A stretch of 64,000 bases of DNA from Candidatus Zixiibacteriota bacterium (GCA_040756055.1 JBFLZR010000002.1:150411-214410); one strand, 5' to 3'. Positions 30,587 through 48,198 are shown, counted from the first letter of the stretch. A program made the numbers and translations. Notes: generated from the sequence alone by a model not told the origin.

Positions 30587-30895
30587 CTACTTGCGACGGG
30601 CTACCGCCGCGTTGATGGCCCGACGGGCTATCTCTGCTTCGATATCGCAGATCGATATCAGACTGTCGATAGCTTCATCGATGTGCTTCAACCACTCCGT
30701 CTCCGGATACCTCTGCCTCAAATCATCGGTCACCTCATCGGCAATCATCGCGATAAGCTCGGCATACCGCCGCTTCTTGCCCGCCTTCAGATAAGGAATA
30801 ACATACTTGTTAGCCACGTGGCTGATTAATACCAGCCCAATCGAACCCAGCGCGCCCAAAAACGAGCCGGAATCAAATATGGATGCTTCCAACAT
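30587..30895 (-). CDS. Holin-like small membrane protein
   Basis: 102 residues. One N-terminal transmembrane segment (SFLGALGSIGLVLISHVAN) is followed by a basic turn (KAGKKRR) and a long amphipathic helical domain ending in an I-N-A-A-V motif. This layout recalls the LL-H family of phage holins, whose C-terminus ends in a similar I-E-A-A-V motif. GGAGGTGAA precedes the ATG. It is the last gene of the phage-like block, where lysis genes often sit, but no endolysin gene is beside it. Confidence 0.5.
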   Translation of the reverse strand: MLEASIFDSGSFLGALGSIGLVLISHVANKYVIPYLKAGKKRRYAELIAMIADEVTDDLRQRYPETEWLKHIDEAIDSLISICDIEAEIARRAINAAVARRK

Positions 30896-30931
30896 TTCAC
30901 CTCCCTTGTATTTCAGGTTTACTTGATTTCT

Positions 30932-32317
30932 TCACCAGCTCAACCGCCACTGCGTCTCGTCTGGCACCTCCAACCTCTGCCGGAGGATCACCCCGTCGGA
31001 CCGGGCAATCGTAAATTCATACTTCGTGCCGGATGGCTCCAAAAGTGCTGACGGAATCAGGTCGAGATAGAAATATCCCTGTTCGTCCGTCGTCGTAGTC
31101 AGCGCCGAAGGCGATACTATCACACCGTTATAAAGAACCGTCCCCGACGCCAGGCTCGCCGTAACCGTCGCGTCATCTTCCGCCTCCCCGCCGGAAGTAT
31201 ACACGTATCCATAAACACGGCACAGCCCCGGCGACGGAGGAGCACCCGGATCAAACTGATCCCCGAAAACCGTATCAACCGTCGGACCATTCACTACGAC
31301 CGTGTCATGCGCGGCAAAAACGTATCCTGCTGCCGAGGCGATCGCCAGGTAGCTGCCATCATCGAGATTGAACGACACTCTACCATCCGAGTCGGTCAAC
31401 CCGGTTGCGATGAGCGACGTTTGTTCGAGATTGCGAATAACAACCGCTACTCCCCCAATCGCGGCGTCGACGCTGGTGTCGGCCGCCTGGACAACGCACG
31501 CATATGTCCCGCTGCCACTGCCGATGCCGGAAATCTCGGCGTCAAGATTACCGCCGAAAGTCCCGTTCACGATATGATTTAGCTGCGGCGTGTTCCAGAC
31601 CCACGAAGCAATCGAGGCCGAATCCGCCCCTCCGCCGACCGCCCCCGAATCGGCATGCACCGACAACTTGTGCCAGAAACCATCCGCGTACAAACTGGAG
31701 TCCCGGCCGGTAATCGTATCGGCCATCTCGGAAAACTCTCCCGCATCCAGAACGACCGGCGTCGCCAGTGGATCGAACGATGACACCCAGTCATCATGAT
31801 TCTGGATACTGTCCAGCAGGGCATAGAGGCTGTCGATTACCTTCGCCTGCCATATCAGCGTATCATACAGCTTCGCCGCGAATGCCGCCGAATCACCGAT
31901 ATCATCAAGCCCCCAGCCCACCACCTGAAACTCGAAACCGGCGCGTGAGTAAAGCCCCAGTGAGGTATTCTTGGCGATAAATTCACCGGCGTAGGCGCCG
32001 GGCATCCCCGCGCCATCAATGTCCGCCACCAACCGATGGTAATAATAGACAGTCTTACCGGCCACCCTGGTTGTGTCCAACCCGACCATGGAGGTGAGCC
32101 CCGAATCCTTGAACACTACGTCATCGGTGTGTGACTTCAACACCACCACCCAGAAACTGTCAGCGCTAATCGGATTACATCCGGCAGAGTCCCAGTTCAC
32201 CAGCGAGACTGTTATGGAATCCTGTCCCGACATCCCCGTATTGCCGACAATCCCTCCATAGCCTGCCTGAACCAATACCAGCGCCACGAAAAACACCGTC
32301 ACTAATACCCTTTGCAT
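30932..32317 (-). CDS. Exported protein with carboxypeptidase-regulatory-like repeats, phage-block gene
   Basis: 461 residues with a signal peptide (1-21, ending QAGYG). A helical middle (~135-165) precedes a fibre-like stretch around ADSASIASWVWNTPQLNHIV. Two regions with carboxypeptidase-regulatory/Ig-like character follow (IGGVAVVIRNLEQTSLIATG ... DGRVSFNLDDGSYLAIASA; and EDDATVTASLASGTVLYNG). It looks like an adhesin or tail-fibre-type protein, yet it carries a Sec leader, which phage virion proteins normally lack. AGGAGG precedes the ATG. It overlaps the upstream gene by 16 nt. Confidence 0.7.
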   Translation of the reverse strand: MQRVLVTVFFVALVLVQAGYGGIVGNTGMSGQDSITVSLVNWDSAGCNPISADSFWVVVLKSHTDDVVFKDSGLTSMVGLDTTRVAGKTVYYYHRLVADIDGAGMPGAYAGEFIAKNTSLGLYSRAGFEFQVVGWGLDDIGDSAAFAAKLYDTLIWQAKVIDSLYALLDSIQNHDDWVSSFDPLATPVVLDAGEFSEMADTITGRDSSLYADGFWHKLSVHADSGAVGGGADSASIASWVWNTPQLNHIVNGTFGGNLDAEISGIGSGSGTYACVVQAADTSVDAAIGGVAVVIRNLEQTSLIATGLTDSDGRVSFNLDDGSYLAIASAAGYVFAAHDTVVVNGPTVDTVFGDQFDPGAPPSPGLCRVYGYVYTSGGEAEDDATVTASLASGTVLYNGVIVSPSALTTTTDEQGYFYLDLIPSALLEPSGTKYEFTIARSDGVILRQRLEVPDETQWRLSW

Positions 32318-33570
32318 CCGCCCTCCTTATGCCCGATCATCTGTTTCCTTCGCCCTGATACCGTCTCATCGGCGACAACCTGCTCCGTATAAGTCGCGTA
32401 CATCGAGAAATTAAACGAAGTCAGCGATGAATGCGTCCACCCATCCCAGTCCAGACCGCAGTAAGTGTTGTCCGTCGATACGGCGTTGGTGACACCGTTG
32501 TAGTAGATGGTCCCGCCGCTGCGCGGGGCACAACTGACCGCCACTCCGTACTCATTTCCTTCAGATAGCTCCTGCTCCAATATCGCGCTGCTAAACCACG
32601 CGGGAGTACCACCCGAAATAGTCACATTCACCCGGTCGCCGACCCTGCTCTGCGGTGTACCACTGACAATCTCGAACGCCGCCATGCTGACACTCATGTC
32701 CCCCGACCCGGTTTCGCAGCCATAAACGGAATACTGGGTGATCGTGGCTGTCTTCCCCGATGGCACCTGGTACGTATTGACACCCGCGAGCCTGTGACAA
32801 TAAGCATAAAGCAGATTCCAGCTCATGGTCGAACCGCCCACCGAGGTGTTTCCGAAAGTCGGATCAATTGTTACAGGATAATCCGCCGATTCGAGCCACA
32901 TCTTATCTAAGACTATCTCGAACCGTCCTCTCTTTACATCAATGTTCAAATCGCACCACACCGTGTCATTGCCGCTCCAGGCCTTTGGACGATACACGAT
33001 AAATGCCTGCCCGGTGCGGTACTCATTTACCAGTGTGTCACCACCCGACACAGACAGAATGTTGTCGGACCTCAACGCATGGTAGGCGACCCACGCCCCG
33101 ACCACCGAGTCCGGCCGAATCGCCCCAAGAACATCCCGCTCGAACACGCTAAGGCTGTCCTGGTAATAAAACCTGAGATTCTTGACACTCATCGCGTATT
33201 CGAGAACGTTCGAAGCAGGCCTCCGCTTAAGCACAATCTCCCATTCCAGGCCGGACTCATTGCGATAAAACCGGTGCCCGATATCATCACTTAACGCCTC
33301 AATGGTGTCACCTTCTACCCGGTAACCAGACGGCCCGGCACCGCAAGCAATCTCGAGCCGACACTCCCCCTGCCACAGGTCCAGACTAAGCCGGCAACCA
33401 CTTGCGTCCTTGCTGATGTTCGCTGTCATGCAACGGCGGTTGTGATTCGATATTGCTTCACCGTCGTAAAGCCTGATCGTATGCTCATCGCCCGCTACCA
33501 ACGTTGACCACACCATCAACACCGACAATACCGCAAGACACAGTCCATAAACCTTCCCACTGCTACCCAT
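32302..33570 (-). CDS. Exported beta-rich protein with YPVTIDPTFG motif, phage-block gene
   Basis: 422 residues. A signal peptide (~1-26, ending TLVAG) is followed by a beta-rich region. The segment ADYPVTIDPTFGNTSVGG (~230) is a motif I associate with large secreted and Rhs-like surface proteins and with some phage-encoded structural proteins. The C-terminal half has repeated Gly/Ser/Thr-rich strands. No catalytic motif is visible. It overlaps both neighbours slightly (8 and 16 nt), so it is cotranslated with the structural genes. Its function is unknown; a virion-surface or cell-surface adhesin is a guess. Confidence 0.65.
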   Translation of the reverse strand: MGSSGKVYGLCLAVLSVLMVWSTLVAGDEHTIRLYDGEAISNHNRRCMTANISKDASGCRLSLDLWQGECRLEIACGAGPSGYRVEGDTIEALSDDIGHRFYRNESGLEWEIVLKRRPASNVLEYAMSVKNLRFYYQDSLSVFERDVLGAIRPDSVVGAWVAYHALRSDNILSVSGGDTLVNEYRTGQAFIVYRPKAWSGNDTVWCDLNIDVKRGRFEIVLDKMWLESADYPVTIDPTFGNTSVGGSTMSWNLLYAYCHRLAGVNTYQVPSGKTATITQYSVYGCETGSGDMSVSMAAFEIVSGTPQSRVGDRVNVTISGGTPAWFSSAILEQELSEGNEYGVAVSCAPRSGGTIYYNGVTNAVSTDNTYCGLDWDGWTHSSLTSFNFSMYATYTEQVVADETVSGRRKQMIGHKEGGCKGY

Positions 33571-33853
33571 CCTGACGTTTCACTTTCTTTGACGGCTTCA
33601 AAGGTTCCTTGCCATCACTCGGCAGATTTTTCCGCCGGATGTCGTCCAGCATCTTCCAGAATTTCTCCTGGTCGGCCTGCGACGGCATCAGTTTCTTTCT
33701 CATTTCAACCATCTTCAAAAAATCCCCTATTTTGATATCCTCGCTTTTGACACGTATCAGTTTTTCGTAGTAATTCTTGATTAGGCCATCCAGCACGTCA
33801 ACCCCAACCGGATGCTGCCCGCTGTCATCGGCGGATTTCTTTTTTCCTGTCAC
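33563..33853 (-). CDS. Small charged helical protein, phage-block gene
   Basis: 96 residues, very rich in Lys, Asp and Glu. A predicted helix spans ~20-75 (KSEDIKIGDFLKMVEMRKK) and the tail is basic (KPSKKVKRQ). No family is recognised. Small proteins of this kind in head gene clusters can be head-tail joining proteins or small terminase-like proteins, but nothing decisive is seen. It lies between the 124-residue gene and the exported YPVTIDPT protein with almost no spacing. Confidence 0.6.
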   Translation of the reverse strand: MTGKKKSADDSGQHPVGVDVLDGLIKNYYEKLIRVKSEDIKIGDFLKMVEMRKKLMPSQADQEKFWKMLDDIRRKNLPSDGKEPLKPSKKVKRQDG

Positions 33854-33854
33854 C

Positions 33855-34229
33855 TCAATCGCCCATCTCCACTACCAGAAGGTCAACCGTCACCGGTCCG
33901 CCGGCCGATTGGTCCCGTGCGATTTTAAACCCGCTCGATATTTCACTTCCAACCACATACGCCGACAGCTCACTCCTGGGACGCACAAAAACACGCGGAT
34001 TGGTAAGGCTCGCCGGAAGATGATTGCCGCGAAAATCCGTCAACTGCTCAAAAGCGACCGATTGCGCGCTATCGCCAACATCAACACTACCGAAGAAAAC
34101 CGACTTGACCGAATCAACGCTCTCCACGGTGAGAAACTCAATCTCACTCCAGCCCGATGTCCCCCAGACGCTCACGTCAGGCACGAACCACACTCTTCTG
34201 CCCGTCACATTCACCAATGCCGTTAACAT
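33855..34229 (-). CDS. Small beta-rich structural protein, phage-block gene
   Basis: Start at ATG 34229 (124 residues), because AGGAGGT lies directly upstream and the start falls 8 nt after the preceding stop; the frame itself is open to 34337. The protein is almost entirely beta strand (RRVWFVPDVSVWG, VTVDLLVVEMGD) and has no signal peptide. Its size, position and fold character would suit a neck, head-completion or tail-terminator protein, but there is no direct motif. Confidence 0.62.
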   Translation of the reverse strand: MLTALVNVTGRRVWFVPDVSVWGTSGWSEIEFLTVESVDSVKSVFFGSVDVGDSAQSVAFEQLTDFRGNHLPASLTNPRVFVRPRSELSAYVVGSEISSGFKIARDQSAGGPVTVDLLVVEMGD

Positions 34230-34237
34230 GTCACCTC

Positions 34238-35050
34238 CTAATTCTTGACCGGGGCGGCCGGTCCGGTATAAGGCGCGCGGAAACTGCTGAGCAATTGTTC
34301 GGAGCGCTCCGCGAAGTGGTCCCCGAGCTTCATCCACGCCAGCGCCGCTTTGTCACTCTTGTTGAGTCCCAGCAGCTCTTTGGCGGCCGTCGCCCTGCCG
34401 ACTATCTCCAGAGCGCGATAAGTCGCCGCGGCCTGCAACGCGATATCCGCCCCGAACTGCCCCTCCGGATCAACCGCCGCCTCAATCAAAGCGTTGGCGT
34501 CAGCAACCGCCTGAATGATCATCTCCTCGATATAACCGGCCAGCAGCGGCGAGTAATCGATATAGACCGACTCGCCATCGCATATATCACCCGACGGCAA
34601 CCTCCGTATCGACCCCCGGTCGTAGTCCGCGTGATAATCGACACCGTCAACATAGACCCGGTAGGTCATATACCACACCACTACCGTTTGCCCAGTACCG
34701 AGAAGTCCGCTCTCTTTCAGAAGCAGGCTGCTGTTTGCATAATCAATTGAGTAATCGGTCCCCTCCGTGAAGATCGTCCCCAGCGAGCTGTCCGATGCCA
34801 CCAGTACCGACCCCGGCACGAGAGGCAAGTTTACAATCCGTGTAGACAACGCCGTCAGGTTTAGATTCACCCTCACCGGCTTTACCGCGACCACTCCCTT
34901 AACGACCAGCGAGCTTTCGTCGACAGCCCCTCCGTAGAACACCAGGTCATCCGTGCCGCGCATTATTACAGCTTGATCACGAACATTACTTTGCGCCGGA
35001 TAAGGCGTGCCCAAATACCTGCGGACCAGTTCTATATTCGTATACGACAC
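34238..35050 (-). CDS. Connector/neck-like protein, phage-block gene
   Basis: 270 residues from GTG 35050, which has GGAGG 5 nt upstream. The opening MSYTNIELVRRYLG resembles the start of phage head-tail connector proteins. The middle is beta-rich with repeats of Y-x-V-x-Y-x-x-G-x-x-L (FTEGTDYSIDYANSSLLLKE; VYVDGVDYHADYDRGSI). The last ~100 residues are helical (EEMIIQAVADANALIEAA). It follows the beta-propeller gene by 2 nt. Assignment rests on position and general fold. Confidence 0.55.
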   Translation of the reverse strand: MSYTNIELVRRYLGTPYPAQSNVRDQAVIMRGTDDLVFYGGAVDESSLVVKGVVAVKPVRVNLNLTALSTRIVNLPLVPGSVLVASDSSLGTIFTEGTDYSIDYANSSLLLKESGLLGTGQTVVVWYMTYRVYVDGVDYHADYDRGSIRRLPSGDICDGESVYIDYSPLLAGYIEEMIIQAVADANALIEAAVDPEGQFGADIALQAAATYRALEIVGRATAAKELLGLNKSDKAALAWMKLGDHFAERSEQLLSSFRAPYTGPAAPVKN

Positions 35051-35052: not shown

Positions 35053-36465
35053 CTACCTCCCCACCGAGAGTTCACGCAGATCCGACTGCGAGGTTATCCT
35101 GCTGCCGACCGGCCCGCTCGTGAATGCCGAGCCTGCTTCCACCCTGACCCAGAACATGCTGCCGCCGTTGACGGTACACTTTTGCCAGTCTGCCGGAATC
35201 GAGTTGAGATCGCTCCAGAAAATCAGATTCTTGCTGATAGCGTCGAAATTGAACGCACCGCCCACCAAAGCGAACGCCTTCCAGTTCACACCATCAAAAT
35301 ATGAATACGTGACAGCCCCCCCGGCCCCCGCCGTTGACAGAATCACATTCGCATTCCGAAACTTCCGTGACAACCCGAAATAAACCGCGTCACCGATATT
35401 CTTCAGCAAAACCCCTGTCTGTGGATGAAACACATCTCCCGCTGTTTCCGATGAAGACGCCGCTGTCAGATCCGCGTACGAACAGGACACAGCGTCATAG
35501 GCCACCACACTCTCGAAATCTCCGGTACTGCTGTCGAGAATGGCGGGCGATGAGAACTCACCCGTTGCCCGATGACTGTACTTGACAACGCTCTGGTTAT
35601 CACCCTCGTCACTCAAATAGACCACCACCGGGATATTGTTCTCGAACTTGAGTTGGGGAAATTCTACTTCCGACTCATCGAGAGTTATCAGCGAACTCCA
35701 GTTGCTGCCATCGTACTCCCGATACTTGAGCTGCTGCGCGTCGAACACTACGCCGAGAAGACCCTCACCTGAAACGGCCGCGTCAAAATGTTCATCGATG
35801 CCTGAGCCGGAGGCTATGACAAACTCGCCTGACCAGCTTCCCCCGGCAATAGACTGTGACTGTACGAACAAATCCGTCCCGGTTCCACAGTAGACCACGT
35901 GGACTTTTGAAGGACCCGCGACGACTTTCGATGTACCGGCCGGAAGTCCCGTCCGAAGACTGTCGCCAGCATCGCCCGGCCCCGTTCCCCAAGTTTGACC
36001 GGAGTCACTCGATGATTTGACCTGGATATCGAAATAGCCCGCGGACAACCGTGAAAAGCTCACCAGAAGTTTCCCGCCCGATGTCCTGGCTATCGATGGC
36101 GCTACACTCACGCCGCCGTTATAAACATAAACCGCATCACCCACTGTCCAGATACCGGCGCTGAAAGACAGCTTTTTGAGCACGATATAGTTTGTCGTCT
36201 GTTCGCAGTAGACGACATAAACGTTACCGCTGTCGTCCATCAGGGCGTCAAAACCGAAGTCCGCCGTCTGTGAGGTCACCTCCGCCAGCGTACTCCACGC
36301 GCTGTATGGTCTGTCGGCGTAAGCGAAACGGATCTGGTTATTCTCGGTCTGAAGCAACACTATAGCTCTTCCCGCGAACTCCCCCGATGAAACCTTAAGA
36401 AGCTGTCGTGTCGGCGGGCCTCCAAACACCTGCGAAGCGGTAGTATCCGCAATTTTTACCTGCAT
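35053..36465 (-). CDS. Beta-propeller (sialidase/BNR-like) protein, phage-block gene
   Basis: Start at ATG 36465 (469 residues; AAGGA 5 nt upstream; the frame is open to 36507). Residues ~40-330 hold repeated blades with S-x-D-G/S-S-x-x-W motifs (KSSSDSGQTWGTG, DDSGNVYVVYC, YDGSNWSSL), as in sialidase or exo-glycosidase propellers. The C-terminal ~100 residues (FDGVNWKAFAL ... ADWQKCTVNGGSMFWVRVE) look like a separate beta sandwich. No signal peptide is present, unlike the two exported proteins downstream. It may bind or process glycans on a virion. A hairpin separates it from the capsid gene. Confidence 0.68.
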   Translation of the reverse strand: MQVKIADTTASQVFGGPPTRQLLKVSSGEFAGRAIVLLQTENNQIRFAYADRPYSAWSTLAEVTSQTADFGFDALMDDSGNVYVVYCEQTTNYIVLKKLSFSAGIWTVGDAVYVYNGGVSVAPSIARTSGGKLLVSFSRLSAGYFDIQVKSSSDSGQTWGTGPGDAGDSLRTGLPAGTSKVVAGPSKVHVVYCGTGTDLFVQSQSIAGGSWSGEFVIASGSGIDEHFDAAVSGEGLLGVVFDAQQLKYREYDGSNWSSLITLDESEVEFPQLKFENNIPVVVYLSDEGDNQSVVKYSHRATGEFSSPAILDSSTGDFESVVAYDAVSCSYADLTAASSSETAGDVFHPQTGVLLKNIGDAVYFGLSRKFRNANVILSTAGAGGAVTYSYFDGVNWKAFALVGGAFNFDAISKNLIFWSDLNSIPADWQKCTVNGGSMFWVRVEAGSAFTSGPVGSRITSQSDLRELSVGR

Positions 36466-36480
36466 ATCGTTCCTTAAATC

Positions 36481-36503
36481 AAGGCCCGGAAAAACCGGGC
36501 CTT
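36481..36503. terminator. Hairpin between capsid gene and beta-propeller gene
   Basis: A perfect 9-bp stem (36481-36489 with 36495-36503) with a 5-nt A loop, 8 nt after the capsid stop. There is no strong T-run, so partial attenuation or 3'-end protection is likelier than full termination. Confidence 0.5.
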
Positions 36504-36510
36504 TCAATTG

Positions 36511-37611
36511 TTAGTGATTGGTTGTCAGGATTACCGCTGCCTGCTTGAGCACCTTGGCAAAAGTAACCGACTCCGAGATAACGGCCTCTTCGAACCGCTG
36601 GTCGATCACCTTGTCGTACTCGATCATCAGCGGCTGAGTGATCACTTCCTCCACCGCGAAACGGTTGTCCAGGCCGATAACATAGTCGCTGGAAACTTCA
36701 TCCGAACGAACCAGCGATGCCCCCAGCGGGCTGAACAACTGACCGGTGCTCTGAAAACGATAACCGGCCATCGGATCGCGGAACTCGTCGAGCGTGAGAA
36801 TCGCCTTGAGCTTGTCGCGGTGACACACTATCGTGTTAAGCTCAAACGGCGAGAAACTCGCCCACAGACTGATAAGATCATCATAGGTCAACACGCCGGT
36901 ATCCGCCGAGTTGATGATTGTCGCGGCGTTGTCGTTGCCGTCGCCGCTGACAATCGTGTCAACCAGCATCCCGATCTTGTCCGACTGAATCTTGAACCCG
37001 ATATACCACAAGAGCACCCGAAACTGCGCCGTCGTCCGATAACGAAGCGCCCGGTAACTGGTCTTGAGGGCCAGCCCGTAGTCGGCCACATTCACCGCGT
37101 GATTCTGCTCGGTCACGATCAACTGCGGGATCTCCGCCCCCTCGCCGATCGGCCTCAGAGAAAATCGGCTGTCGTTGTCGGTATCGATATTGAACGGCGT
37201 GTACTTGTTGCTCGCCACGGTTGTGCTGCTCGCGATCAGCCGGTCGAGATCCGGACGCATCGCCTGCCCCTTCTTGATCTCCCGGAGCATGAATTCGGGA
37301 AGAAGCGATGGCGCCTGCTGGTAGAACTGCTCCACTGTCGTCGGCGACTTACCGCCGATCCGTATGCCCGCCAGCACCAGCTGACGCTCGAAAGCGTCAA
37401 GAACGCTGCCGTTCGGCGACGGATCATATTCGTCGCATTCCAGAAGCTCCGACACCGACATCCCCCTGGCCTCGGCTTCGCTATACAGCTCCTTGTCCAC
37501 CTCTATGCCGCTGGCCCGACTCAGATCAACCGAAGAATGATTGATCAATTTCGAATCGTCCTGCTGAAGATTCTCGACGGCTCCCGACTGAATGAAATCG
37601 TTGAAATCCAC
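36511..37611 (-). CDS. HK97-fold major capsid protein
   Basis: 366 residues from GTG 37611, chosen because GGGGGAG lies just upstream and the start clears the decoration gene's stop. The frame extends to 37644. The N-terminal ~90 residues are charged and helical, like a delta/scaffold segment. From ~100 the order E-loop, P-domain and A-domain fits HK97-type capsids (FNIDTDNDSRFSLRPIGEGA, YGLALKTSYRALRYRT, NTIVCHRDKLKAILTLDEFR, DNRFAVEEVI). Capsid identity is supported by its place after protease, scaffold-like and decoration genes. Confidence 0.82.
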   Translation of the reverse strand: MDFNDFIQSGAVENLQQDDSKLINHSSVDLSRASGIEVDKELYSEAEARGMSVSELLECDEYDPSPNGSVLDAFERQLVLAGIRIGGKSPTTVEQFYQQAPSLLPEFMLREIKKGQAMRPDLDRLIASSTTVASNKYTPFNIDTDNDSRFSLRPIGEGAEIPQLIVTEQNHAVNVADYGLALKTSYRALRYRTTAQFRVLLWYIGFKIQSDKIGMLVDTIVSGDGNDNAATIINSADTGVLTYDDLISLWASFSPFELNTIVCHRDKLKAILTLDEFRDPMAGYRFQSTGQLFSPLGASLVRSDEVSSDYVIGLDNRFAVEEVITQPLMIEYDKVIDQRFEEAVISESVTFAKVLKQAAVILTTNH

Positions 37612-37624
37612 CTGCTCCCCCTTT

Positions 37625-38044
37625 CTAATTGAGAAGTATGACACAGTCGATTGTGCCGTTCACATCAAGCACCGTCCCGCGGGCGATATTCCCGCCAGCC
37701 GGATCACCCGCCACCGTCGGCGCCTGCTTGACCGTTCCGCTTGTGCCGCCCACTACCCTGTTACCGACCAACGGCGCCGGCGCGCTTACCGCCAGACGAC
37801 AAATTCCGCCAACCTGCACCGTGGCCACCCGCTGACCATCATCGGCGTCCGTAAGAGTCAGGCTGATGAGTTTGCCCAAAAGCTGACCATCGGCCGCCAG
37901 CGGACCAACCTCACAGTTGCCGCTCAACGCCACCGGCCCGCCAATGTCAGCATCCTTCAAATCATCCACACCCGATGTCTGGTGAATCTTGAATGTCGCC
38001 AGCATCGGAGCGATTGTCTCGAGATTATGATCTCTGATCGTCAT
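37625..38044 (-). CDS. Capsid decoration-like protein
   Basis: 139 residues, almost all beta strand and rich in Gly, Ala and Val, with no signal peptide. The C-terminal block AGGNIARGTVLDVNGTIDCVILLN resembles DUF2190-type and lambda-D-like capsid cement proteins, which end in a similar G-x-V-L-x-V-x-G block. GAGGGG precedes the ATG. Its position immediately before the capsid gene is the usual place for decoration proteins. Confidence 0.68.
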   Translation of the reverse strand: MTIRDHNLETIAPMLATFKIHQTSGVDDLKDADIGGPVALSGNCEVGPLAADGQLLGKLISLTLTDADDGQRVATVQVGGICRLAVSAPAPLVGNRVVGGTSGTVKQAPTVAGDPAGGNIARGTVLDVNGTIDCVILLN

Positions 38045-38121: not shown

Positions 38122-38532
38122 TTACTTGTATTCACTCGGTCTGTATTGATTCGATGATTTTCGCGAACGCACTCTATCCGCGAAACTCGCCGGAAACGTA
38201 TCGCGCATCCTCGCCTGCGCTTTTCGATACCTCGAAAGCAACTGCTCCGCGTCGAGACCCGACAGTTCCTCGATAGCCAGCAGCGCCGATTCTACGCCAT
38301 CACGGCTTCTTCGCGCCACCGCAATCGCCTTCTCCATACCGGAAAGTCGCTTGATAATGTCTTCGCGAAACAGATCTCGCTCTTGCTTCACCAGTTGAAA
38401 CTCGCCCAGGATAGTCAATACATCCGACAGCGTCGCCCTGAGCTGATCAAAATCCAGTTCGCCTATCGACTCACTCTCGATACAAGCTGTCAGCCGTTCG
38501 AGAAATTCTTTGTGCCTGTCAATTTTTTCCAA
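38122..38532 (-). CDS. Coiled-coil scaffold-like protein, phage-block gene
   Basis: 136 residues, almost wholly alpha-helical with heptad patterns (LRATLSDVLTILGEFQLVKQ) and a basic C-terminus (RVRSRKSS). A helical protein with a basic tail between protease and capsid genes is what a capsid scaffolding protein looks like; this is a position-based inference. It starts at TTG 38532, overlapping the preceding gene by 14 nt. Confidence 0.58.
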   Translation of the reverse strand: MEKIDRHKEFLERLTACIESESIGELDFDQLRATLSDVLTILGEFQLVKQERDLFREDIIKRLSGMEKAIAVARRSRDGVESALLAIEELSGLDAEQLLSRYRKAQARMRDTFPASFADRVRSRKSSNQYRPSEYK

Positions 38533-38833
38533 GGTCCTGCCCTCGCCCTTCTTTGAGGTAAAACTCTATGCGCGACAGCCGCGCCTCAACGTCTTTCGAA
38601 AACTCATAAAACTGCTCGCGGCTCACCACACTCTCCTTTAATACCACCTCGATATTCGCCAGCCTCTTGTCGAGCGACTCGACCACTGTATCCTCGGCCT
38701 TCGCCGCCAGTTCTATCTTCAATGACTGAATTGTCAGAAAATAGGCCGCCGCCAGGCTCAAAATCACCCCGATAAACTTGAGCATCGCCGCGCTCAACCT
38801 GAATCCGCCCTCTTTATAGTCCAGCACTACCAT
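38519..38833 (-). CDS. Small membrane-anchored coiled-coil protein, phage-block gene
   Basis: 104 residues. One hydrophobic helix (LKFIGVILSLAAAYFLTI, ~18-35) is followed by a coiled coil (ESLDKRLANIEVVLKESVV ... DVEARLSRIEFYL). The form recalls small phage membrane proteins near lysis or head genes, such as i-spanin-like proteins, but the position between protease and scaffold is unusual for those. It overlaps both neighbours (20 and 14 nt), so translation is coupled. Confidence 0.58.
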   Translation of the reverse strand: MVVLDYKEGGFRLSAAMLKFIGVILSLAAAYFLTIQSLKIELAAKAEDTVVESLDKRLANIEVVLKESVVSREQFYEFSKDVEARLSRIEFYLKEGRGQDLGKN

Positions 38834-40343
38834 TGCCTTCGGACTCCTCGCTTAGAGATTTGATATCCGCTACCCGGCGAATCAAACACCTCGTCACACC
38901 GTTAATCTTGATCGGACAGATCGCCATCACACCCTCGATCCCGCCCGATATCTCGAGAAGCAGCACGCCATCGCGAAGTCCCGCCGCCAGAAGTTCACCA
39001 TGCGCTAAGGTAGCGAGCGCGGCCGTGCTGCAAACATCTACCTCGTCAGCGATAAACCGCGCGCCCTTCATGAAACGACTGAAATGAAATTGCCTGATAA
39101 CAAACTGATGTGTCTTCCCACCCCGGTAAAGACACAGCACCGCGTTGCTGCCGTCGGGCTGACCGAACAGAGCAAACCGACCACAACCCTCGCGACTCTC
39201 AGTTGCCGGTTTGTACAGATAGCCGCGATGGCCGGATGATGATTCACCCCTCGGATACACGCGAACGCCCCCTCTGGTCCGCATCTTACCCGCGCACTCC
39301 TCAAGACCGGAAACCCCGCTGTACGCATGACGAATCTGTTTTATTGTCAGTGCGTCCGTGACAATATCCACACTGCCCTGTTCAACCCCTTCCTGCGGAT
39401 ATAACCGCAACTCCAGCCGTGTCACCCGGCCGGTTCCCTTCTCAAGGTACTTCTCGAGATCCGCCTGTGAGCACCGCTCTTTTCCGCGAAATCCGATCAA
39501 TACACCACTCGCGCCGCTCAAATCGCGTAAGCCGGCAACTGCGATATGCTCCTCCCCGTGAAACTTGACCGTTTCGCCATCGTGAGTGGCCATCGACAGT
39601 CTCCCATCCGCGCATTCCACTGTCACCTCAATTCCATCATAATGAGGCACCACCAGATACTCCACCGATGGATCCAGTACGGCCGTGCTGCTGATAACTG
39701 TCGCTGTGTCGCCCCCGAAATCGTGATCGCTCTCGTCGAGCTGACGGGAAATCGATGTATCCCGGACCGCCCCGCGATAGACCAGCGATGTCTCCAGCAC
39801 CCGTTCTATCTGACGGTAATTGAAATGACAGCTCGCCCCGCTTTCATTGTCCGGATACTTTTGAAAAGGCTCATGCCGGCACGTCCTGATATCTTCGCCG
39901 CAGATCGAACACTCCGGAAAGAGATACGTGAACCCGATTGAGCACTCCTTGTAGATACCCCCATCGATATTCTCTTTGAGATCCAGGGCACCCTTCGCCG
40001 ATTTGAGCCAGTAGAAATAACTTTTGACCCACGTCTTGTCGCCGCGGTTAACTATTTCCGCGTGAAAAGTCCTCGCTACCGGCAGCTTATCCTTGCGGTG
40101 TCCTACCAGAACCGGCGAGTCTACGAGAAGCTCTATCAGCCGCTCCAACTCCTCCGCCGGAAACCTGCCGCCGAAACTGTTGACCTCATCGGAAACGATA
40201 TACATGGCGCGGATTAGTACGTCCGATGACCGTACCGGGCTGGGGGGATTGATATTTACATTAATGTAGTCGATCAGTTCACTTAGCCGCTCATCGGTCG
40301 GCTCGGCCAACTCGGCCCTGATCCTTGAAAAACTGGCGTCCAT
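38814..40343 (-). CDS. XkdF-like prohead protease with long C-terminal extension
   Basis: 509 residues; phage prohead proteases are usually 150-300. The N-terminal ~200 contain VNSFGGRFPAEELERLIELL, SPVLVGHRKDKLPVARTFHA (putative catalytic His) and KECSIGFTYLFPECSICGED (putative catalytic Ser and a CxxC-H zinc-like knuckle), matching XkdF-type serine proteases. Residues ~230-500 are extra. They include VVPHYDGIEVTVECADGRLS and a DGETVKF strand, reminiscent of the Y-D-G core of DNA ligase/nucleotidyltransferase folds but with His where the catalytic Lys would be. GGAGGTCAG precedes the ATG. It is the first head gene after the cargo region. Confidence 0.72.
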   Translation of the reverse strand: MDASFSRIRAELAEPTDERLSELIDYINVNINPPSPVRSSDVLIRAMYIVSDEVNSFGGRFPAEELERLIELLVDSPVLVGHRKDKLPVARTFHAEIVNRGDKTWVKSYFYWLKSAKGALDLKENIDGGIYKECSIGFTYLFPECSICGEDIRTCRHEPFQKYPDNESGASCHFNYRQIERVLETSLVYRGAVRDTSISRQLDESDHDFGGDTATVISSTAVLDPSVEYLVVPHYDGIEVTVECADGRLSMATHDGETVKFHGEEHIAVAGLRDLSGASGVLIGFRGKERCSQADLEKYLEKGTGRVTRLELRLYPQEGVEQGSVDIVTDALTIKQIRHAYSGVSGLEECAGKMRTRGGVRVYPRGESSSGHRGYLYKPATESREGCGRFALFGQPDGSNAVLCLYRGGKTHQFVIRQFHFSRFMKGARFIADEVDVCSTAALATLAHGELLAAGLRDGVLLLEISGGIEGVMAICPIKINGVTRCLIRRVADIKSLSEESEGNGSAGL

Positions 40344-41618: not shown

Positions 41619-41672
41619 GTCGGTGTTCCGCCGGAGTCGAAGGCTTTTCAAATCAAGTATTGCGCTGTCGTA

Positions 41673-42503
41673 TCATCTCAATCTAACTGCGGAGCGCATC
41701 GGGGTGTGCACGCCTCCGCAAATATGGGCCGCCCCTACCCGAGTATCCGTACCATGCTTCAGATGATACTCAATACCGTGCGATTCGCAAAAAGATACAA
41801 CTTGGGAACAAAGATCGTTATAATAATCTCGGTGACCTTCATACTCCTTTGATCTCACGTTGTAGTTTAGTCTACCAAAAACAATCTTATCCACGAAGCC
41901 AATGCGTTCCAGCAATTCGTTAATGTCCTGATCCGCGATGTTTGGCGTTGGATACGGCTCCATACTGACCCAAGTCTTTGCCCCTTGGTTGCTTAGGCGC
42001 TCCAAGCTCCTGACGCGCATAAACCACTTAGCAGAGTATGGCTCATACTCTCTTAAGTATGAAGCGCTATTTGATACAAAACTGATTCCATACTCGTTTT
42101 GATCCAGCGTACCATAATGTAATATATCTGCCGGATAAATTCCTTTTGTGAGAGTAGTTACCTTGATGCCATGATCGTTAAGAAGTCGAATGATCCTAAG
42201 TGACATGTCGGTCACGTCGGGATAACCGACCATAAAGGGATCCGACATAAAGCACAAATGGACAAAGCGAATCTTATCTTTCATCCTTGGAATTTCTCTG
42301 TGCAGTAGCTCTATAGCATTACCAACAAGCTTCGGCTTTCTCCAGTCTTGATATGTATTAGTTCGACCGAATCGCTTTGACATCAGCATAGCGTAACACG
42401 GATACCTACACCCGTGGGCACAACCCTCAATATGGTTTATGGAGTAGTCTCCATACTCCACGCCCGTTTTGTACAGCAGAGTCTTTCTCAGAATCTGTTT
42501 CAT
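41673..42503 (-). CDS. Three-Cys-motif radical-SAM-like protein, TcmP partner (DUF5131/Gp37-like)
   Basis: 276 residues. Near residue 28 there is a C-x3-C-x3-C motif (CAHGCRYPC) within IEGCAHGCRYPCYAM, close to but not the same as the radical SAM C-x3-C-x2-C. A TIM-barrel-like pattern follows (HLCFMSDPFMVG, VTTLTKGIYPADI, WVSMEPYPTPN). Proteins of this kind regularly occur beside TcmP proteins; the gene for one starts only 15 nt upstream here. The biochemical role is not established. The start at 42503 has no strong ribosome binding site, so coupling to tcmP is likely. Confidence 0.8.
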   Translation of the reverse strand: MKQILRKTLLYKTGVEYGDYSINHIEGCAHGCRYPCYAMLMSKRFGRTNTYQDWRKPKLVGNAIELLHREIPRMKDKIRFVHLCFMSDPFMVGYPDVTDMSLRIIRLLNDHGIKVTTLTKGIYPADILHYGTLDQNEYGISFVSNSASYLREYEPYSAKWFMRVRSLERLSNQGAKTWVSMEPYPTPNIADQDINELLERIGFVDKIVFGRLNYNVRSKEYEGHRDYYNDLCSQVVSFCESHGIEYHLKHGTDTRVGAAHICGGVHTPMRSAVRLR

Positions 42504-42518
42504 TGCAACAACGCTATT

Positions 42519-43379
42519 CTATAGCAGTCCCAGTTCGAGATTCTTATGTTTGGCCTCTCTCCAGAATTTGAGACCGAGAGAATGTTTACTGGCAAATATC
42601 AGATAATAGATATCCGCCTTGGTCTTTGTCTTGACCTTGACCTTTTGTTCGAGGTCATCCTCCACTGCCGTGAAACCGAGCGCCTTCAGCCTATCCATGT
42701 AAAACGGTAGCCATTCTAGGTCTCTATCAGGCCATGTTTCGCACCCAAAAAACTGGTTCGCCTTTTCGTGCTTGCCGCTGGAATAATTCGCAAGGTTCCT
42801 TTTAAGGTCTGAAACACCGAAATTGATAATGACATCAAGTTTAGGAAACTGCGACAACAACTTGAGAGTGTTGTAGTGAATGTCTAGTCCATTGGGATCC
42901 AGAAAGGCCACCGATAATGACTTAGCCCCGTTCACATGTTTAAGAATCCTGGCAACATCTTGATTCGCGTCCACGTTGAGAATGTTAATTCTCTCTATTA
43001 ATTCCGGCGCCAGCCGTTCACATCTCTTGTGCAGAATATCAGATGTCTTGGAGTCGGCATCAACAAAAATGTAGTTCGTAAAAGGGTTTTTCAACGTAAG
43101 CGCAATCAGAGAAGATCCGAGTCTTTCTTCACCATTCTCACGATTGATACAAAGCCCTGGCCCGGAAAAGAGATCAATGAAATTGAGTTCTTTGTGGTGA
43201 GATTTCATTGCTACAGAAAATATTTTAAGGTAGTAGTCGAGCACTTCCAGTTTTAGGAACGACTGCGAATGTACGCACCGCACCGGTAAACCGTCTGACG
43301 TATCGACGCCATCGCACAAGAAACGCTTTCTTTTTCGTGCTTCAGGGTTACAATCCTGACACATGAGCGGTTGGGCCAT
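42519..43379 (-). CDS. tcmP: Three-Cys-motif partner protein TcmP
   Basis: 286 residues. The N-terminus is Cys-rich (CQDC, ~7-10, then FLCDG and RCVHS) and is followed by the TcmP core (FIDLFSGPGLCINR ~68-82; IFVDADSKTSD; VAFLDPNGLDIHYNTL; VIINFGVSDLKRN). The D-L-F-S-G-P-G and D-P-x-G-L blocks look like a Rossmann methyltransferase-like fold. It forms a two-gene unit with the three-Cys protein; GAGG precedes the ATG. Such pairs are often found in accessory and phage-linked regions. A defence role is a hypothesis only. Confidence 0.85.
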   Translation of the reverse strand: MAQPLMCQDCNPEARKRKRFLCDGVDTSDGLPVRCVHSQSFLKLEVLDYYLKIFSVAMKSHHKELNFIDLFSGPGLCINRENGEERLGSSLIALTLKNPFTNYIFVDADSKTSDILHKRCERLAPELIERINILNVDANQDVARILKHVNGAKSLSVAFLDPNGLDIHYNTLKLLSQFPKLDVIINFGVSDLKRNLANYSSGKHEKANQFFGCETWPDRDLEWLPFYMDRLKALGFTAVEDDLEQKVKVKTKTKADIYYLIFASKHSLGLKFWREAKHKNLELGLL

Positions 43380-43510
43380 TATCCATCCTCATTTTAGATA
43401 CAGCGCCATTAGACAATATACGGAACCACATGCTCAACAATCAACTACGTATTCACCCAGTGGCCAAATGTTTGCGGTGGGAATAGACTCGGGTTTATGC
43501 CCCGCGAGGC

Positions 43511-44437
43511 TCATCCGGTGTCCGACCTATTTCTACTTTCGATCTTCGCATCTAGGCTCACCAAGTACCCAAGCCCGACGTTAGAAAGCAGTTTGCGCGT
43601 CGATAGATCATCGTCAAAAGCTTGAGCGGCAATGCTGCCACCGACTTTCGCCGCATCAATTGCCGCTGATATCCCACCACCCGTGAACCATTTAAGAGTA
43701 ATGCTTGGAAGGTGGCTTCCAACTTTACCGATCAGCCTGCGCCAACGGGCTCCGCGCTCAAACACCAGGCGGCGCTTTAGTTCCTCGAGCCGAGGCAGTA
43801 TATCCGTCTCAGCGATGTATTTGGCTTCCCTGTATATTTCGGCAGGTGGTGCATCGGAGTCTATTGCGGAACGAACTTTCGGCGCAAGCGCTAACATTGC
43901 GGCTCTGAACGGCGTGAGTTGATCCCTCAACGACTCCCTTGTCTCTAATATGTCTTGAGAGCTTAATGTCGCAAACGCCGGCAAGATTAACTCAAGAGAT
44001 TGAACCGCTAAGGCGCTAGCCTGAAAAGCGGCAGCGCGTCTGATGTCGACTTGTGTCAGAACAGATAACGGAAGCGGTGCATCGACTTTGTCAGTAACTG
44101 GTACGGCCCCCTCGACCACACAACACTTCAGCGCCATTCCAGTCACGTGAAAATCCCAGATTTTGTCAAGTTCCACTTCTTCAAGCGAAGGAAACTGTCG
44201 GCGGAAATCATCTTCAATGTCATCCAGAGGATACTCCTCTCTCAAGTCCAGCACGCCCTCTTGAACGAGGGGGTCACTGGAGAACATTTCCGTCATCCCA
44301 TGGCCGCCTCCACAGGCCATTCCGCCCAAAGCAAAGTGAACAACGACCTTATCGTAGATCAAGCAGAGCACAGTCTTCAATCTCTGGTCATTAACAAGAT
44401 CAGAGGGGTAGTAGGCGCCAATCCATCCTTCTTTCAT
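43511..44437 (-). CDS. Protein of unknown function, cargo gene
   Basis: 308 residues from ATG 44437 (AGGTG just upstream; the frame is open to 44482). The N-terminus GWIGAYYPSDLVNDQRLKTV precedes a Gly/His/Cys-rich patch (GGMACGGGHGMTEMF). A helical middle and a Gly/Ala-rich C-terminal segment (GGGISAAIDAAKVGGSIAAQ) that could insert in a membrane follow. I do not recognise a family. It shares strand and neighbourhood with the TcmP pair (131-nt gap). Confidence 0.6.
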   Translation of the reverse strand: MKEGWIGAYYPSDLVNDQRLKTVLCLIYDKVVVHFALGGMACGGGHGMTEMFSSDPLVQEGVLDLREEYPLDDIEDDFRRQFPSLEEVELDKIWDFHVTGMALKCCVVEGAVPVTDKVDAPLPLSVLTQVDIRRAAAFQASALAVQSLELILPAFATLSSQDILETRESLRDQLTPFRAAMLALAPKVRSAIDSDAPPAEIYREAKYIAETDILPRLEELKRRLVFERGARWRRLIGKVGSHLPSITLKWFTGGGISAAIDAAKVGGSIAAQAFDDDLSTRKLLSNVGLGYLVSLDAKIESRNRSDTG

Positions 44438-44796
44438 CTTCACCTGCTGGCCCACAGCCTGCTGTGGGAACCTTTCACACATTCTTCCCGAGTTTATTCA
44501 CCATCCTGTCAAATCAAAGCTGTGCGGGGCAAAGGCAAACCCTCCCGCTATCCAATAGAAAATATATACCCTCTTATCCAGAATTGGTCAATTACATTTT
44601 CCTCCGCCGACCTGCGCTTTTGCGCAAACAGTTGCTCTTTTTTGCAGCCATTTTGTTGCTGTTCAAGCCCTGCGCAAAGCCCCTAAACCCAACAAAATCA
44701 TACCGTTAGCCCACGGCGGCACGGCCCCGGCAATATCGGCACAGCGGTTGCACTCAGGTAGGTCAAAAGGCACAATAACCGGAAGGTAGGAAAAAC
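44438..44796. other. Intergenic region holding repeat copy B
   Basis: Besides the repeat copy B at 44611-44672, nothing is supported. The frames here are short and lack ribosome binding sites. Confidence 0.6.
44611..44672 (+). repeat. Direct repeat copy B flanking the cargo
   Basis: It is the partner of 40403-40460, in the same orientation, about 79 percent identical over the first 52 aligned positions and carrying an extra TCAA before the common GCCCTG end. Confidence 0.8.
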
Positions 44797-45045: not shown

Positions 45046-45086
45046 ACGCCCTTTAAGACTCCTCCCTTAAAGGGCGTTTTTATTTT
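45046..45086 (+). terminator. Rho-independent terminator after the small membrane peptide gene
   Basis: A perfect 12-bp stem (45046-45057 with 45066-45077) with an 8-nt loop, followed on the plus strand by TTTTATTTT. Confidence 0.85.
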
Positions 45087-45112
45087 ATCGATTGTACGAA
45101 CCCAGCGAACAG

Positions 45113-45514
45113 CTACTCACCGATGAAAATCTGAAACTCCACCTCGCGTTCCACCGAGGTAGAATCCCACGGGCGAAGATACTCCAGGGCCACCGATGTC
45201 GACCCGGCCGCTATCGCCTCGAAAAGCCACTCATCATGACCCCCGCGTCCAACCACTTTCTCCGGATTGGGCTTGGCGATATACTGATGCTCCATCAGCT
45301 TCAAAAGAGATGAATCGACATCGCTGACAAACCGCCATCCATACCCGGTCGATGGATTCGACTCGAGCGCGATCTTGAACCGCTCGCCCATCTTTACACT
45401 GACAGTATCTGCGGAATCTGCATAGACCTTGGGATCACTGCTCTGACTGCTGCAGGCCAGACTTATCGACAGGGTCAGTATGACCGCATAAACAATACTC
45501 TTCGCTTTCCACAT
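45113..45514 (-). CDS. Chagasin-family (I42) cysteine protease inhibitor-like lipoprotein
   Basis: 133 residues from ATG 45514, with GGAGG 6 nt upstream (frame open to 45538). The signal peptide ends in a lipobox (L-S-L-A-C, ~16-20). The diagnostic loop NPSTGYGW (~52-59) and later RPWDS element match the NPTTGY and RPW loops of chagasin-type inhibitors of papain-like proteases. It should sit in the periplasm or outer membrane. It lies immediately downstream of the terminase gene, as a cargo or moron gene within the phage-like block. Confidence 0.82.
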   Translation of the reverse strand: MWKAKSIVYAVILTLSISLACSSQSSDPKVYADSADTVSVKMGERFKIALESNPSTGYGWRFVSDVDSSLLKLMEHQYIAKPNPEKVVGRGGHDEWLFEAIAAGSTSVALEYLRPWDSTSVEREVEFQIFIGE

Positions 45515-45598
45515 ATCACACCTCCCGGGCAATGACAATTTACGATTTCACAAACTACACCCATGATACGGAAATTCATTGCCCGCAACAACGCTTTT

Positions 45599-46864
45599 TC
45601 AGAAACGTCCAATCCTCGGCTGAAGTACAACTCCCCCCTGCTTTCTAAGAGGCCACAACGCCAGAGCAAGCGCCATCACACTGTCGCAGTCGCTGTTGTC
45701 ATCCCACCGGGCCCGGCGAAGTTCATCCTCAAGCGACCACATCTTCCCCGATTTGTCGACAAGCTCCCACCGCTGGTAAACAATCCTGCCGCGCGCGTGA
45801 AATAACTCCAGATTCGTCAAAAGCTCCGCCTTCGTCTTCTCCGTGAACAGCACGGCCTGGGGATGATACTCCGCCAGTTGCTCCACGATAACATCGCCCA
45901 ACCCGGTAGCATCGATTACCATCTCCCCCGGATACACTAACTGACGTTGCTTTATCTTCGCGGTTACGATATTCCAGTCGAATCGCTGGAGCCGGTCAAG
46001 TTCCACCACCCGTACTGTCTCACCGTCGTACGCAACCGTAATCCCCACTGTCGCTGTCTGCTTGCGCGCCAGATCCCAACCCGATATGAACTTCAGGCTC
46101 CGCGTCTCCTGCGCCGCCTGAACGCCGGCGAACTCCGAGAGGGCACGATCCACATATTCACCACGAAGAATCTCCCCGCCGCAATCCACGAACTGCCCCA
46201 TGATATTCTGCTGCACCCTGCGCTCGGAAAAATTCCGCATTCGCTCGCCCAGCGCCCGCTTTGAGATGAAACTGTTTTCCCGGCTGTCCCCCGACTGAAA
46301 ATAACCTTCCCGCTTCCCCTCGATTATCTCCCGCGCCCTCAGATAAAACCAGTTCTTGCCGTTCGGCGTCGACACCAGATCCAGCCTCCCCTCACGATCC
46401 GCCAGACGCATCTGGATGACCTCTTCGACCACATACTCCGGATCCGTCTCGAAAGCAACCTCATCGAATATGAATAAATCATAATCGTTGCCCAGAAGAT
46501 ACTCACCCCGGTTTTGTGTCGACCGCGCCTCAATCACGGATCCGTTCGAAAACACGAGCCGCGGATACGGGGTGCGCGTTATCGATTCCACCAGGCACTC
46601 CAGAATCGGCGAACTTCTCACGATCCGCACCACCTGGTTGAATATGATATTGGCCTGATCCTGAGTAATCGACGCTGTAACGATCCGGTACCTGCCCGCG
46701 TTGTCGTACGAAAGATCCCTTACGCGGTAGATAGCGTGATGAATAATTTTCAACGCCGACACGAATGACTTCCCCCACCGGTTGCCGGTGACCAAAGCAT
46801 TCTCGCGGCAGCGCGAACCCTCCAGCCACTTCTTCTGACCCTCGTGGCAGGATATTCCCAGCAC
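45599..46864 (-). CDS. Phage terminase large subunit
   Basis: 421 residues from GTG 46864. The ATPase part has Walker A TGNRWGKSF (~27-35) and Walker B LFIFDEVAF (~130-138). The RNase-H-like nuclease has the acidic residues in ISGWDLARKQ, VIDATGLGD and DSVMALALA. Coding similarity probably continues upstream to about 46939: the frame reads INWGRGLKDPAYFADAVLG, a typical terminase opening, but contains no ATG, GTG or TTG. A rare start such as ATT 46939, overlapping the portal stop, or a frameshift may be used. It packages DNA through the portal. Confidence 0.88.
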   Translation of the reverse strand: MLGISCHEGQKKWLEGSRCRENALVTGNRWGKSFVSALKIIHHAIYRVRDLSYDNAGRYRIVTASITQDQANIIFNQVVRIVRSSPILECLVESITRTPYPRLVFSNGSVIEARSTQNRGEYLLGNDYDLFIFDEVAFETDPEYVVEEVIQMRLADREGRLDLVSTPNGKNWFYLRAREIIEGKREGYFQSGDSRENSFISKRALGERMRNFSERRVQQNIMGQFVDCGGEILRGEYVDRALSEFAGVQAAQETRSLKFISGWDLARKQTATVGITVAYDGETVRVVELDRLQRFDWNIVTAKIKQRQLVYPGEMVIDATGLGDVIVEQLAEYHPQAVLFTEKTKAELLTNLELFHARGRIVYQRWELVDKSGKMWSLEDELRRARWDDNSDCDSVMALALALWPLRKQGGVVLQPRIGRF

Positions 46865-46929
46865 CGCGTCAGCGAAATAGGCGGGATCCTTCAGACCCCG
46901 CCCCCAGTTGATTTTCGCGATATCGTCTA

Positions 46930-48198
46930 TTATAACAATTCCCCGGCGCGCTCTTGTGCTGTCTTTTTGTCAATCAGGCCGGCCTCAAAGAGCTTCAGAA
47001 TATTGCCAATCCTACTCGACTCTATCTCCGCCTTTTCATTGGCCTGGTACGCGAAAGTATTATCGAACTGCCAGCGACAGGTCTGCTTAAAGCCTCCCAG
47101 GGCCAGATCAATATTGCCGATCCATTCCAGAAACGACGCCATCTGCGCCTGAACCGACTTCACCTGACGCATCACCAGATCAAACTTGAACGACGACCAG
47201 CTCGTGGTCGCGCCGTAAGAATAGCCCAGCAGAAATGGAGCCAGATTGGTGCCGCAGCAAATCTCCTCGATCATCGAACGATGATTCACAAACCAGGAAT
47301 TGGTCACCGTCCTCACATTGTTCGGCCCGATATACTCGATAGCGATATTATCCCACGTCACCGGATTCTCATCGACCCGGCACGACTTTATCATCGAGAC
47401 CGTGGAATCAAAGTAGCTGTTGACCCGCTCTATATACGCCTGCTCGGACTCCCCGCTCATTCGCTCCGGCGGCGTGACCTTTACATGAAGACGATGATAA
47501 CCGGAATTGTGACTCGACCTTCGCATATCATCAACGAGCTGCTGCTCGATAAACGAAACAAACGGCACCGACTGTAAAATCGATTTCCCCAGCGGCCGGC
47601 TTATGTCGCTGTTTAACGGCACGAAATAGAAATCCGGACGCTCCAAATCCAGCGAACTGTCAGCCCCCTCCAGCACCAGTCTCGGCCTGCCGTTCACGAT
47701 TTGAATCGCGAGATCCGACGAGTCAATTGAGATGAATTTATCCACCCCGCTTTCATCGCGCTTGACCGTCAGAAATCCACCGAATACTCCGTCACGGTAT
47801 AAGCCCGTGAACAGGTCCGCTACCAGTGCAATCAGACTTCCCCCCGACGTGTGCGCGCTGTCCCACATACTCTCCGACAAGCGCTCAAGGCGCTCAGCAG
47901 CTTCATCAGCGCCACCCTTGTGGCCGCCCTCGATTGTGAATCTCCCGGGCGCCGCGCTCAACCTGACCCAGGTTGACACACAGGCGCTTATGATCGGAAC
48001 ATTATCCGACAGAAACCGGTAAAGCCCCATGCGGTGCCGTCCGGCCGCGACCTCCGAAGTCTGCCATTTGATCTCCCTCTTAATAACTGAGGTTGTCGCC
48101 AACCCCTCTGCTTCGGGCGCACGTACTCTGGCAGCCAATCTGTCGGTCAGGCACTGCGAAACGATCTCTTTTCCCCGGTTTTTTCGAAACAGCCTCAT
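46930..48198 (-). CDS. Phage portal protein
   Basis: 422 residues. Portal-type features include SDNVPIISACVSTWVRL (~64-80), the beta-rich DGVFGGFLTVKRDESG wing and a long C-terminal stem/crown helix region (SYGATTSWSSFKFDLVMRQV ... ALGGF). GGAGGAATA precedes ATG 48198. It is the first gene of the block and is followed by the terminase; the usual order is terminase then portal. The dodecameric portal is the DNA gate of the procapsid. Confidence 0.78.
   Translation of the reverse strand: MRLFRKNRGKEIVSQCLTDRLAARVRAPEAEGLATTSVIKREIKWQTSEVAAGRHRMGLYRFLSDNVPIISACVSTWVRLSAAPGRFTIEGGHKGGADEAAERLERLSESMWDSAHTSGGSLIALVADLFTGLYRDGVFGGFLTVKRDESGVDKFISIDSSDLAIQIVNGRPRLVLEGADSSLDLERPDFYFVPLNSDISRPLGKSILQSVPFVSFIEQQLVDDMRRSSHNSGYHRLHVKVTPPERMSGESEQAYIERVNSYFDSTVSMIKSCRVDENPVTWDNIAIEYIGPNNVRTVTNSWFVNHRSMIEEICCGTNLAPFLLGYSYGATTSWSSFKFDLVMRQVKSVQAQMASFLEWIGNIDLALGGFKQTCRWQFDNTFAYQANEKAEIESSRIGNILKLFEAGLIDKKTAQERAGELL

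Follow-up and report, generated by a model that had tools for sequence, protein, structure and literature searches.

Why would a bacterial chromosome carry the genes for a phage head and for filling it with DNA when no gene for a tail, for integration or for replication can be recognised beside them? This question is raised by a 64,000-nucleotide stretch (the window) of a genome from Candidatus Zixiibacteriota, also known as candidate division Zixibacteria, GN15 or RBG-1; the genome comprises 3.3 Mb on 12 contigs and is 97.7% complete. On the basis of ORFs, PHROG and Pfam matches and predicted structures, positions 30587-48198 of the minus strand hold an intact HK97-type head and packaging module. 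Every gene that the original prediction had named there on one strand (portal, terminase, protease, scaffold-like, decoration, capsid, connector-like and holin-like) proved to be a true minus-strand ORF at its given position, and from the protease to the holin gene neighbours overlap or are separated by gaps of at most 77 nt. Promoter and terminator scans returned chance level only. The features are as follows.

30587..30895, minus strand: holin-like membrane protein of a conserved family (phrog_6918, weak match, E 0.0068)
30932..32317, minus strand: exported protein with a CarboxypepD_reg domain (PF13620, 1.1e-8) and a conserved C-terminus (50/58 loci, signal peptide conserved)
32302..33570, minus strand: exported protein with an N-terminal hydrophobic signal peptide, in a variable slot filled by differing signal-peptide proteins in most genomes
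33563..33853, minus strand: p96, small helical protein of 96 aa, candidate small terminase from the position of its homologues (PHROG support weak)
33855..34226, minus strand: p160, small beta protein of 123 aa, putative receptor-binding or fibre head protein (AF2 pLDDT 90)
34238..35050, minus strand: predicted head-to-tail (portal) adaptor with an Ig-like insert, 270 aa (AF2 pLDDT 86; VIA-align)
35053..36507, minus strand: probable beta-propeller/fibre-like surface protein, 484 aa (Asp-box SxDxGxTW; weak PDB profile match to 4irt, E 3e-5; 55/58 loci)
36511..37644, minus strand: major capsid protein (phrog_3922, 3.4e-62; single copy, 111/132 genomes)
37625..38044, minus strand: decoration/virion structural protein (phrog_4588, 6.3e-7; 55/58 loci)
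38122..38532, minus strand: scaffold-like helical protein between the protease and decoration genes (weak match, E 0.004, to the protein that phage cousins encode at this position)
38519..38833, minus strand: single-TM coiled-coil protein with a hydrophobic segment (HMM family at 49/58 loci)
38814..40343, minus strand: prohead protease of HK97 type whose C-terminal extension varies (phrog_16951, 1.4e-15)
41673..44482, minus strand: inserted cargo, confined to this genome, namely an unknown 323-aa protein, TcmP and a DUF5131 radical SAM protein (TIGR04474, 2.4e-42; PADLOC PDC-M41A/B)
45113..45538, minus strand: chagasin-like protease inhibitor I42 (PF09394, E 1.8e-25)
45599..46864, minus strand: large terminase TerL (phrog_2, E 1.7e-31; Pfam Terminase_6N; single copy)
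46930..48198, minus strand: portal protein (phrog_3753, E 7.6e-13; conserved in Zixiibacteriota)

The catalytic residues of the packaging and maturation enzymes are intact. In TerL, the Walker A motif GNRWGKS, the Walker B DE and the nuclease Asp are invariant in all aligned sequences phylum-wide; its start was called at a GTG, although the open frame extends upstream of it and homologues begin ~20-25 aa earlier. Among phage records, TerL is matched best by a Thermus phage terminase, and other Thermus and Meiothermus phages were also matched. Among the protease homologues, His82 (53/53) and Ser135 (54/54) are invariant and accompany a Cys/His zinc-type motif. The capsid profile gave no match when run against PDB sequences.

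Downstream of the capsid gene, predicted structures sharpened several assignments. The "connector-like" gene at 34238-35050 is indeed of neck type, and its AF2 fold (a helix at the N-terminus, a pair of beta domains and a bundle of three helices) points to a head-to-tail adaptor: VIA-align gave Z scores of 9.2 with T4 gp13, 8.9 with the P74-26 neck and 8.0-8.8 with several podovirus adaptors, although a Z below 8 may reflect no more than an arrangement that is common, and tail proteins are matched by the beta parts of the adaptor too. The alignment of this protein across relatives is highly variable, and the adaptor of the window had no match in phage records. The next gene was originally drawn at 33855-34337; the ORF is real, and its start probably lies at ~34226, matching relatives. 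The best BFVD matches of its product, p160, are receptor-binding and tail-fibre proteins (weak, E ~0.06 at prob ~1), there was no significant match to PDB folds, and PHROG scans of p160 and of the 484-aa family returned nothing useful. The Asp-box found in the 484-aa protein is typical of beta-propellers. The placement of p96 homologues in some families (L062, L065, L073 and L078), where they separate portal from TerL, makes p96 a candidate small terminase. The products of the genes at 32302-33570 and 30932-32317 carry signal peptides at the N-terminus, which the original prediction had not remarked on, and export is predicted for both; they could serve surface docking or adhesion. No endolysin was found, and Amidase_2 had no match anywhere in the genome. 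Just outside the block, at 48492-49976 of the window, lie genes for two neighbouring secreted proteins with PEP-CTERM-like ends, homologues of which recur close to the cassette in many relatives.

The block was originally taken as one cassette from 30587 to 48198, and this holds for its head and packaging genes; positions 41673-45538, which carry TcmP, DUF5131, the unknown gene and the chagasin-like inhibitor, lie outside the conserved cassette and are mostly a later insertion. The TcmP and DUF5131 genes (41673-43379) occur between TerL and protease in this genome only, relatives being devoid of both at that place, and the pair corresponds to PDC-M41, listed by PADLOC as a candidate anti-phage defence system. 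The chagasin-like gene at 45113..45538 is found at this position only here and in genome G025, a genus-level insertion. Between the insertion and the protease gene, 1.3 kb (40343-41673) include short repeats that are dispersed to dozens of other genomic places.

We then asked how far the cassette extends through the phylum. The capsid gene was found in 111 of 132 Zixiibacteriota genomes, including 73 of the 78 good ones, and always as one copy, three genomes with two capsid matches having a single gene in two pieces. Profile searches detected TerL, also single-copy, in 115/132 genomes (71/78 good ones), such that 76 of the 78 good genomes carry capsid and/or TerL and only G011 and G055 are without both. 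Capsids are present in 18 of 19 families, the 19th being represented by one incomplete genome. The order portal-TerL-protease-TM-scaffold-decoration-capsid-fibre-adaptor-p160-p96-exported-exported-holin is kept in ~57 loci; in some families adaptor and p160 are swapped locally and p96 has moved, and in several distant genomes portal-TerL is detached (59 kb away in G128 and 91 kb in G114). A host gene of TPR type (tpr) adjoins the portal gene in 22 of 39 portal-bearing loci, and since it does so across orders, the locus is orthologous. The element is chromosomal and lies between conserved host genes, which fits the trait "fully endogenized, often multilocus" of gene transfer agents (GTAs). Two genomes depart from this picture in ways that may be real or may reflect assembly. 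In RBG-1 (G010, locus L071) TerL is missing and the fibre gene is in two frames, by decay or through assembly errors; the lost TerL and split fibre gene imply that loss is tolerated there. In the single-contig genome G027 the capsid gene is in two pieces ~600 kb apart (C1:1725304 and C1:2322220) with TerL near one of them, a rearrangement or a misassembly.

If the cassette descended with its hosts, its gene trees should mirror theirs. Indeed, across 41 genomes the capsid and rpoB trees have 30 of 38 bipartitions in common, compared with a mean of 0.3 and a maximum of 2 for shuffled labels, and a Mantel r of 0.845; the corresponding figures are 12/24 for TerL and 13/25 for portal, with the other genes intermediate. 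Capsid distances are ~1.4x rpoB distances. In a tree of 138 capsids, all Zixiibacteriota sequences form one clade (support 0.89) that is sister to L169, a contig from the IMG/VR virus collection, and the sole IMG/VR member of the Zixiibacteriota clade, L159, is a Zixiibacteriota cassette itself. The cassette has therefore co-diversified with its host and does not show the patchy, host-discordant spread of prophages. It is also under purifying selection: by the Nei-Gojobori method and from pairs with usable dS, the capsid dN/dS is 0.014-0.12 in most pairs and 0.19 in one, and portal, TerL and adaptor mostly score 0.05-0.25, portal and TerL on their own 0.05-0.2. Because dS is saturated in some pairs, only near pairs are trustworthy. 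Values are looser for the exported proteins, p96 and the scaffold, and the pair G127/G128 exhibits weak constraint in all genes, p160 reaching a dN/dS of 0.75.

Tape measure, tube, sheath, integrase and replication genes were not recognised in the block, nor were tail, integrase or replication genes in the ~57 syntenic loci. Likewise, PhageMin_Tail and TMP_3 (two tape-measure families) and Phage_sheath_1 had no match across the 97.7% complete genome, with the proviso that HMM searches could miss divergent tail proteins. This agrees with the original report of missing tail genes and, by Pfam and PHROG scans of the block and inspection of the ~57 loci, of a conserved cassette devoid of recognisable integrase, repressor and replication genes. 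Structure searches, from which hidden tail genes might have been expected to surface, yielded a neck adaptor and receptor-binding-like folds; tube, sheath and tape measure folds did not turn up, and the flanks of the block had no recognised integrase. Tails do occur in the phage cousins of the capsid (a sheath in L163, 9e-13, and a tape measure in L209, 3e-28), so loss of a tail present in the ancestor is probable; unrecognised tail genes elsewhere are possible.

On these grounds we consider it likely that the block is a GTA-like element with a single domestication close to the base of the sampled Zixiibacteriota and vertical inheritance ever since. Domestication itself is strongly supported: the original prediction favoured a domesticated packaging particle over decay and looked to purifying selection, kept synteny and the lack of an integrase in relatives for evidence of it, all of which we observed, along with one copy per genome throughout the phylum and gene trees that track the host tree. 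ICTV counts endogenization and co-diversification with the host among the traits of GTAs (PMC9662315). Another such trait, proteins derived from caudoviricetes, is evident from the PHROG and Pfam matches of portal, TerL, capsid and decoration protein and from the adaptor fold. The head genes of an ancient virus, tail excluded, have persisted across the phylum as one set of genes inherited vertically, probably as a machine for packing and passing on the DNA of the cell itself.

We infer that particles form, take up host DNA, are released and deliver it, and the gene content suggests how this might proceed. Capsid, decoration protein, scaffold-like protein and protease would form a small head of HK97 type on the portal, into which TerL, possibly with p96 as its small subunit, would pump DNA. 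The locus lacks genes for replication or excision, so the cargo should be pieces of the host chromosome. The adaptor (34238-35050) would close or decorate the portal vertex, adhesion in place of a tail may fall to p160 and the beta-propeller protein, and the holin-like protein may help lytic release of particles. DNA might enter recipients via the ComEC uptake system, as RcGTA DNA does; ComEC is present in 121/132 genomes. ComEC and DprA serve the recipients of RcGTA (PMC10883770), and GTAs are able to act as repair templates (PMC9632790). Our more specific proposal, to which we would give somewhat less than an even chance, is that of an ancestral, nearly universal and tail-less DNA-delivery particle, that is, a GTA with its tail lost in which small neck adhesins, perhaps together with exported docking proteins and DNA-uptake machinery, do the work of the tail.

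Two other readings of a head without a tail bear on this proposal. One, a sub-case of the GTA-like reading with which its probability overlaps, holds that a full tail is encoded elsewhere by genes too divergent for the models. Split loci are known in the phylum, as the portal-TerL pairs 59-91 kb off in G128 and G114 attest, and the second operon of the Faecalibacterium element FpGTA lies ~125 kb away; we nonetheless regard distant tail genes as unlikely, given that two tape-measure families and a sheath family were unmatched in the genome and that in the sister cassettes L169, L313 and L314, too, no tail gene can be recognised from the head to the lysis genes. The other sees in the locus a domesticated capsid that packs DNA for some purpose besides transfer, be it getting rid of DNA, serving as a signalling particle or hindering phages through capsid competition. 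The lack of a tail for injection and the exported proteins encoded in the same gene run would suit such a purpose, but purifying selection on TerL, portal and adaptor alike fits DNA filling and a functional exit vertex, and the receptor-binding-like proteins are likewise kept, which leaves this reading quite improbable in our estimation.

Readings that do without domestication fare worse. A capsid-forming satellite of the PICI type, with its own capsid and tails borrowed from a helper, would combine head and packaging genes with the lack of a tail, yet the conserved cassette contains no integrase or satellite regulator and its near-universal, vertical distribution is unlike that of mobile satellites; we rejected this reading as highly improbable. 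Decay of a prophage, which could explain the missing tail, integrase and replication genes as well as the partly lost RBG-1 copy, is so improbable as to be ruled out: as originally argued from the intact frames, simple decay does not fit, and dN/dS is low, one orthologous copy occurs in nearly all genomes and the trees are host-congruent. An active or cryptic prophage or a recent integration was rejected on the same host-congruent spread and on the lack of recognised integrase, repressor and replication genes in the conserved cassette at ~57 loci, and an encapsulin nanocompartment, an HK97 shell without packaging machinery, because portal, TerL, protease and adaptor are conserved with the capsid. 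The original alternative of an unusual phage group becomes much less likely because of vertical inheritance.

The GTA-like reading, if true, would have consequences beyond this locus. Few GTAs have been characterised, most of them from Alphaproteobacteria. For an uncultured phylum (we know of no cultured Zixiibacteriota host), a capsid gene retained once per genome in nearly every good genome sampled would rank among the deepest bacterial virus domestications. Particle-borne gene exchange would cease to be an oddity and count among the core traits of a phylum, and the lack of a tail poses the mechanistic question of the minimum needed for DNA transfer between cells. In PMC, whose coverage leaves out most subscription papers and bioRxiv, no paper paired "gene transfer agent" or "capsid" with "Zixibacteria".

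Judged by description, the closest published analogue appears to be FpGTA, whose head operon of TerS, TerL, portal, scaffold and capsid occurs in all Faecalibacterium genomes examined and whose 40 nm particles have no identifiable tail, with a second locus ~125 kb away (PMC12946183). GTA-like packaging by Ruminococcaceae has also been published from faecal virus-particle DNA (PMC12946183). A short head operon is common to FpGTA and the Zixiibacteriota element, and neither has an identified tail, in the particles of the former and among the genes of the latter. However, FpGTA is a genus-level element of Firmicutes with baseplate/fibre and lysis genes in its operon II, whereas the Zixiibacteriota element is phylum-wide and has no recognisable baseplate or endolysin gene. 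With RcGTA and the alphaproteobacterial type I GTAs (Rhodogtaviriformidae) it has in common the HK97 head, vertical inheritance and a multilocus organisation (PMC9662315, PMC10883770). By contrast, RcGTA particles carry a 49 nm tail (PMC9662315), and the Zixiibacteriota element has no recognised tail genes and is phylum-wide.

Relatives of the capsid also reside in sequences filed as viral. MT835508 and its relatives, unannotated scaffolds that come from human faeces and are labelled "Bacteriophage sp.", encode capsids with 32-36% identity, and MT835508.1 (L309), deposited as a bacteriophage, is a piece of bacterial chromosome, with RnfC, RpoA, SecY, Adk and S13 around a TerL-portal-protease-capsid run. 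Both MT835508, probably from Clostridia, and the Zixiibacteriota locus thus present a head-gene run flanked by host genes; several gut and rumen relatives of MT835508, unlike the Zixiibacteriota element, carry contractile-tail (sheath-like) or baseplate-like genes, as identified by eye. A scan of IMG/VR with a single capsid sequence found nothing, whereas one with the capsid alignment obtained matches. Among these, L159 (3300027896_005586) is listed as a virus and is the Zixiibacteriota cassette, with a capsid 59% identical and the same gene order including portal-TerL-protease, so the element may affect virome counts. In the phage relatives L163 (4715-9514), L202, L212 and L213, the capsid gene is likewise followed directly by genes for fibre-like proteins with a signal peptide or a membrane anchor; exporting such proteins may characterise this capsid lineage. 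Finally, the IMG/VR contigs L169, L313 and L314 bear homologues of adaptor, portal and protease beside a different TerL, followed by signal-peptide proteins and, in L313 and L314, by a holin-like protein and an Amidase_2 endolysin, no recognised tail genes lying between head and lysis genes in any of the three. Although their gene order and TerL differ from those of Zixiibacteriota, they have the head-only run and the exported proteins in common with them and are perhaps another GTA lineage; such sister head-only cassettes with exported and lysis genes suggest that the same design exists in other phyla too.
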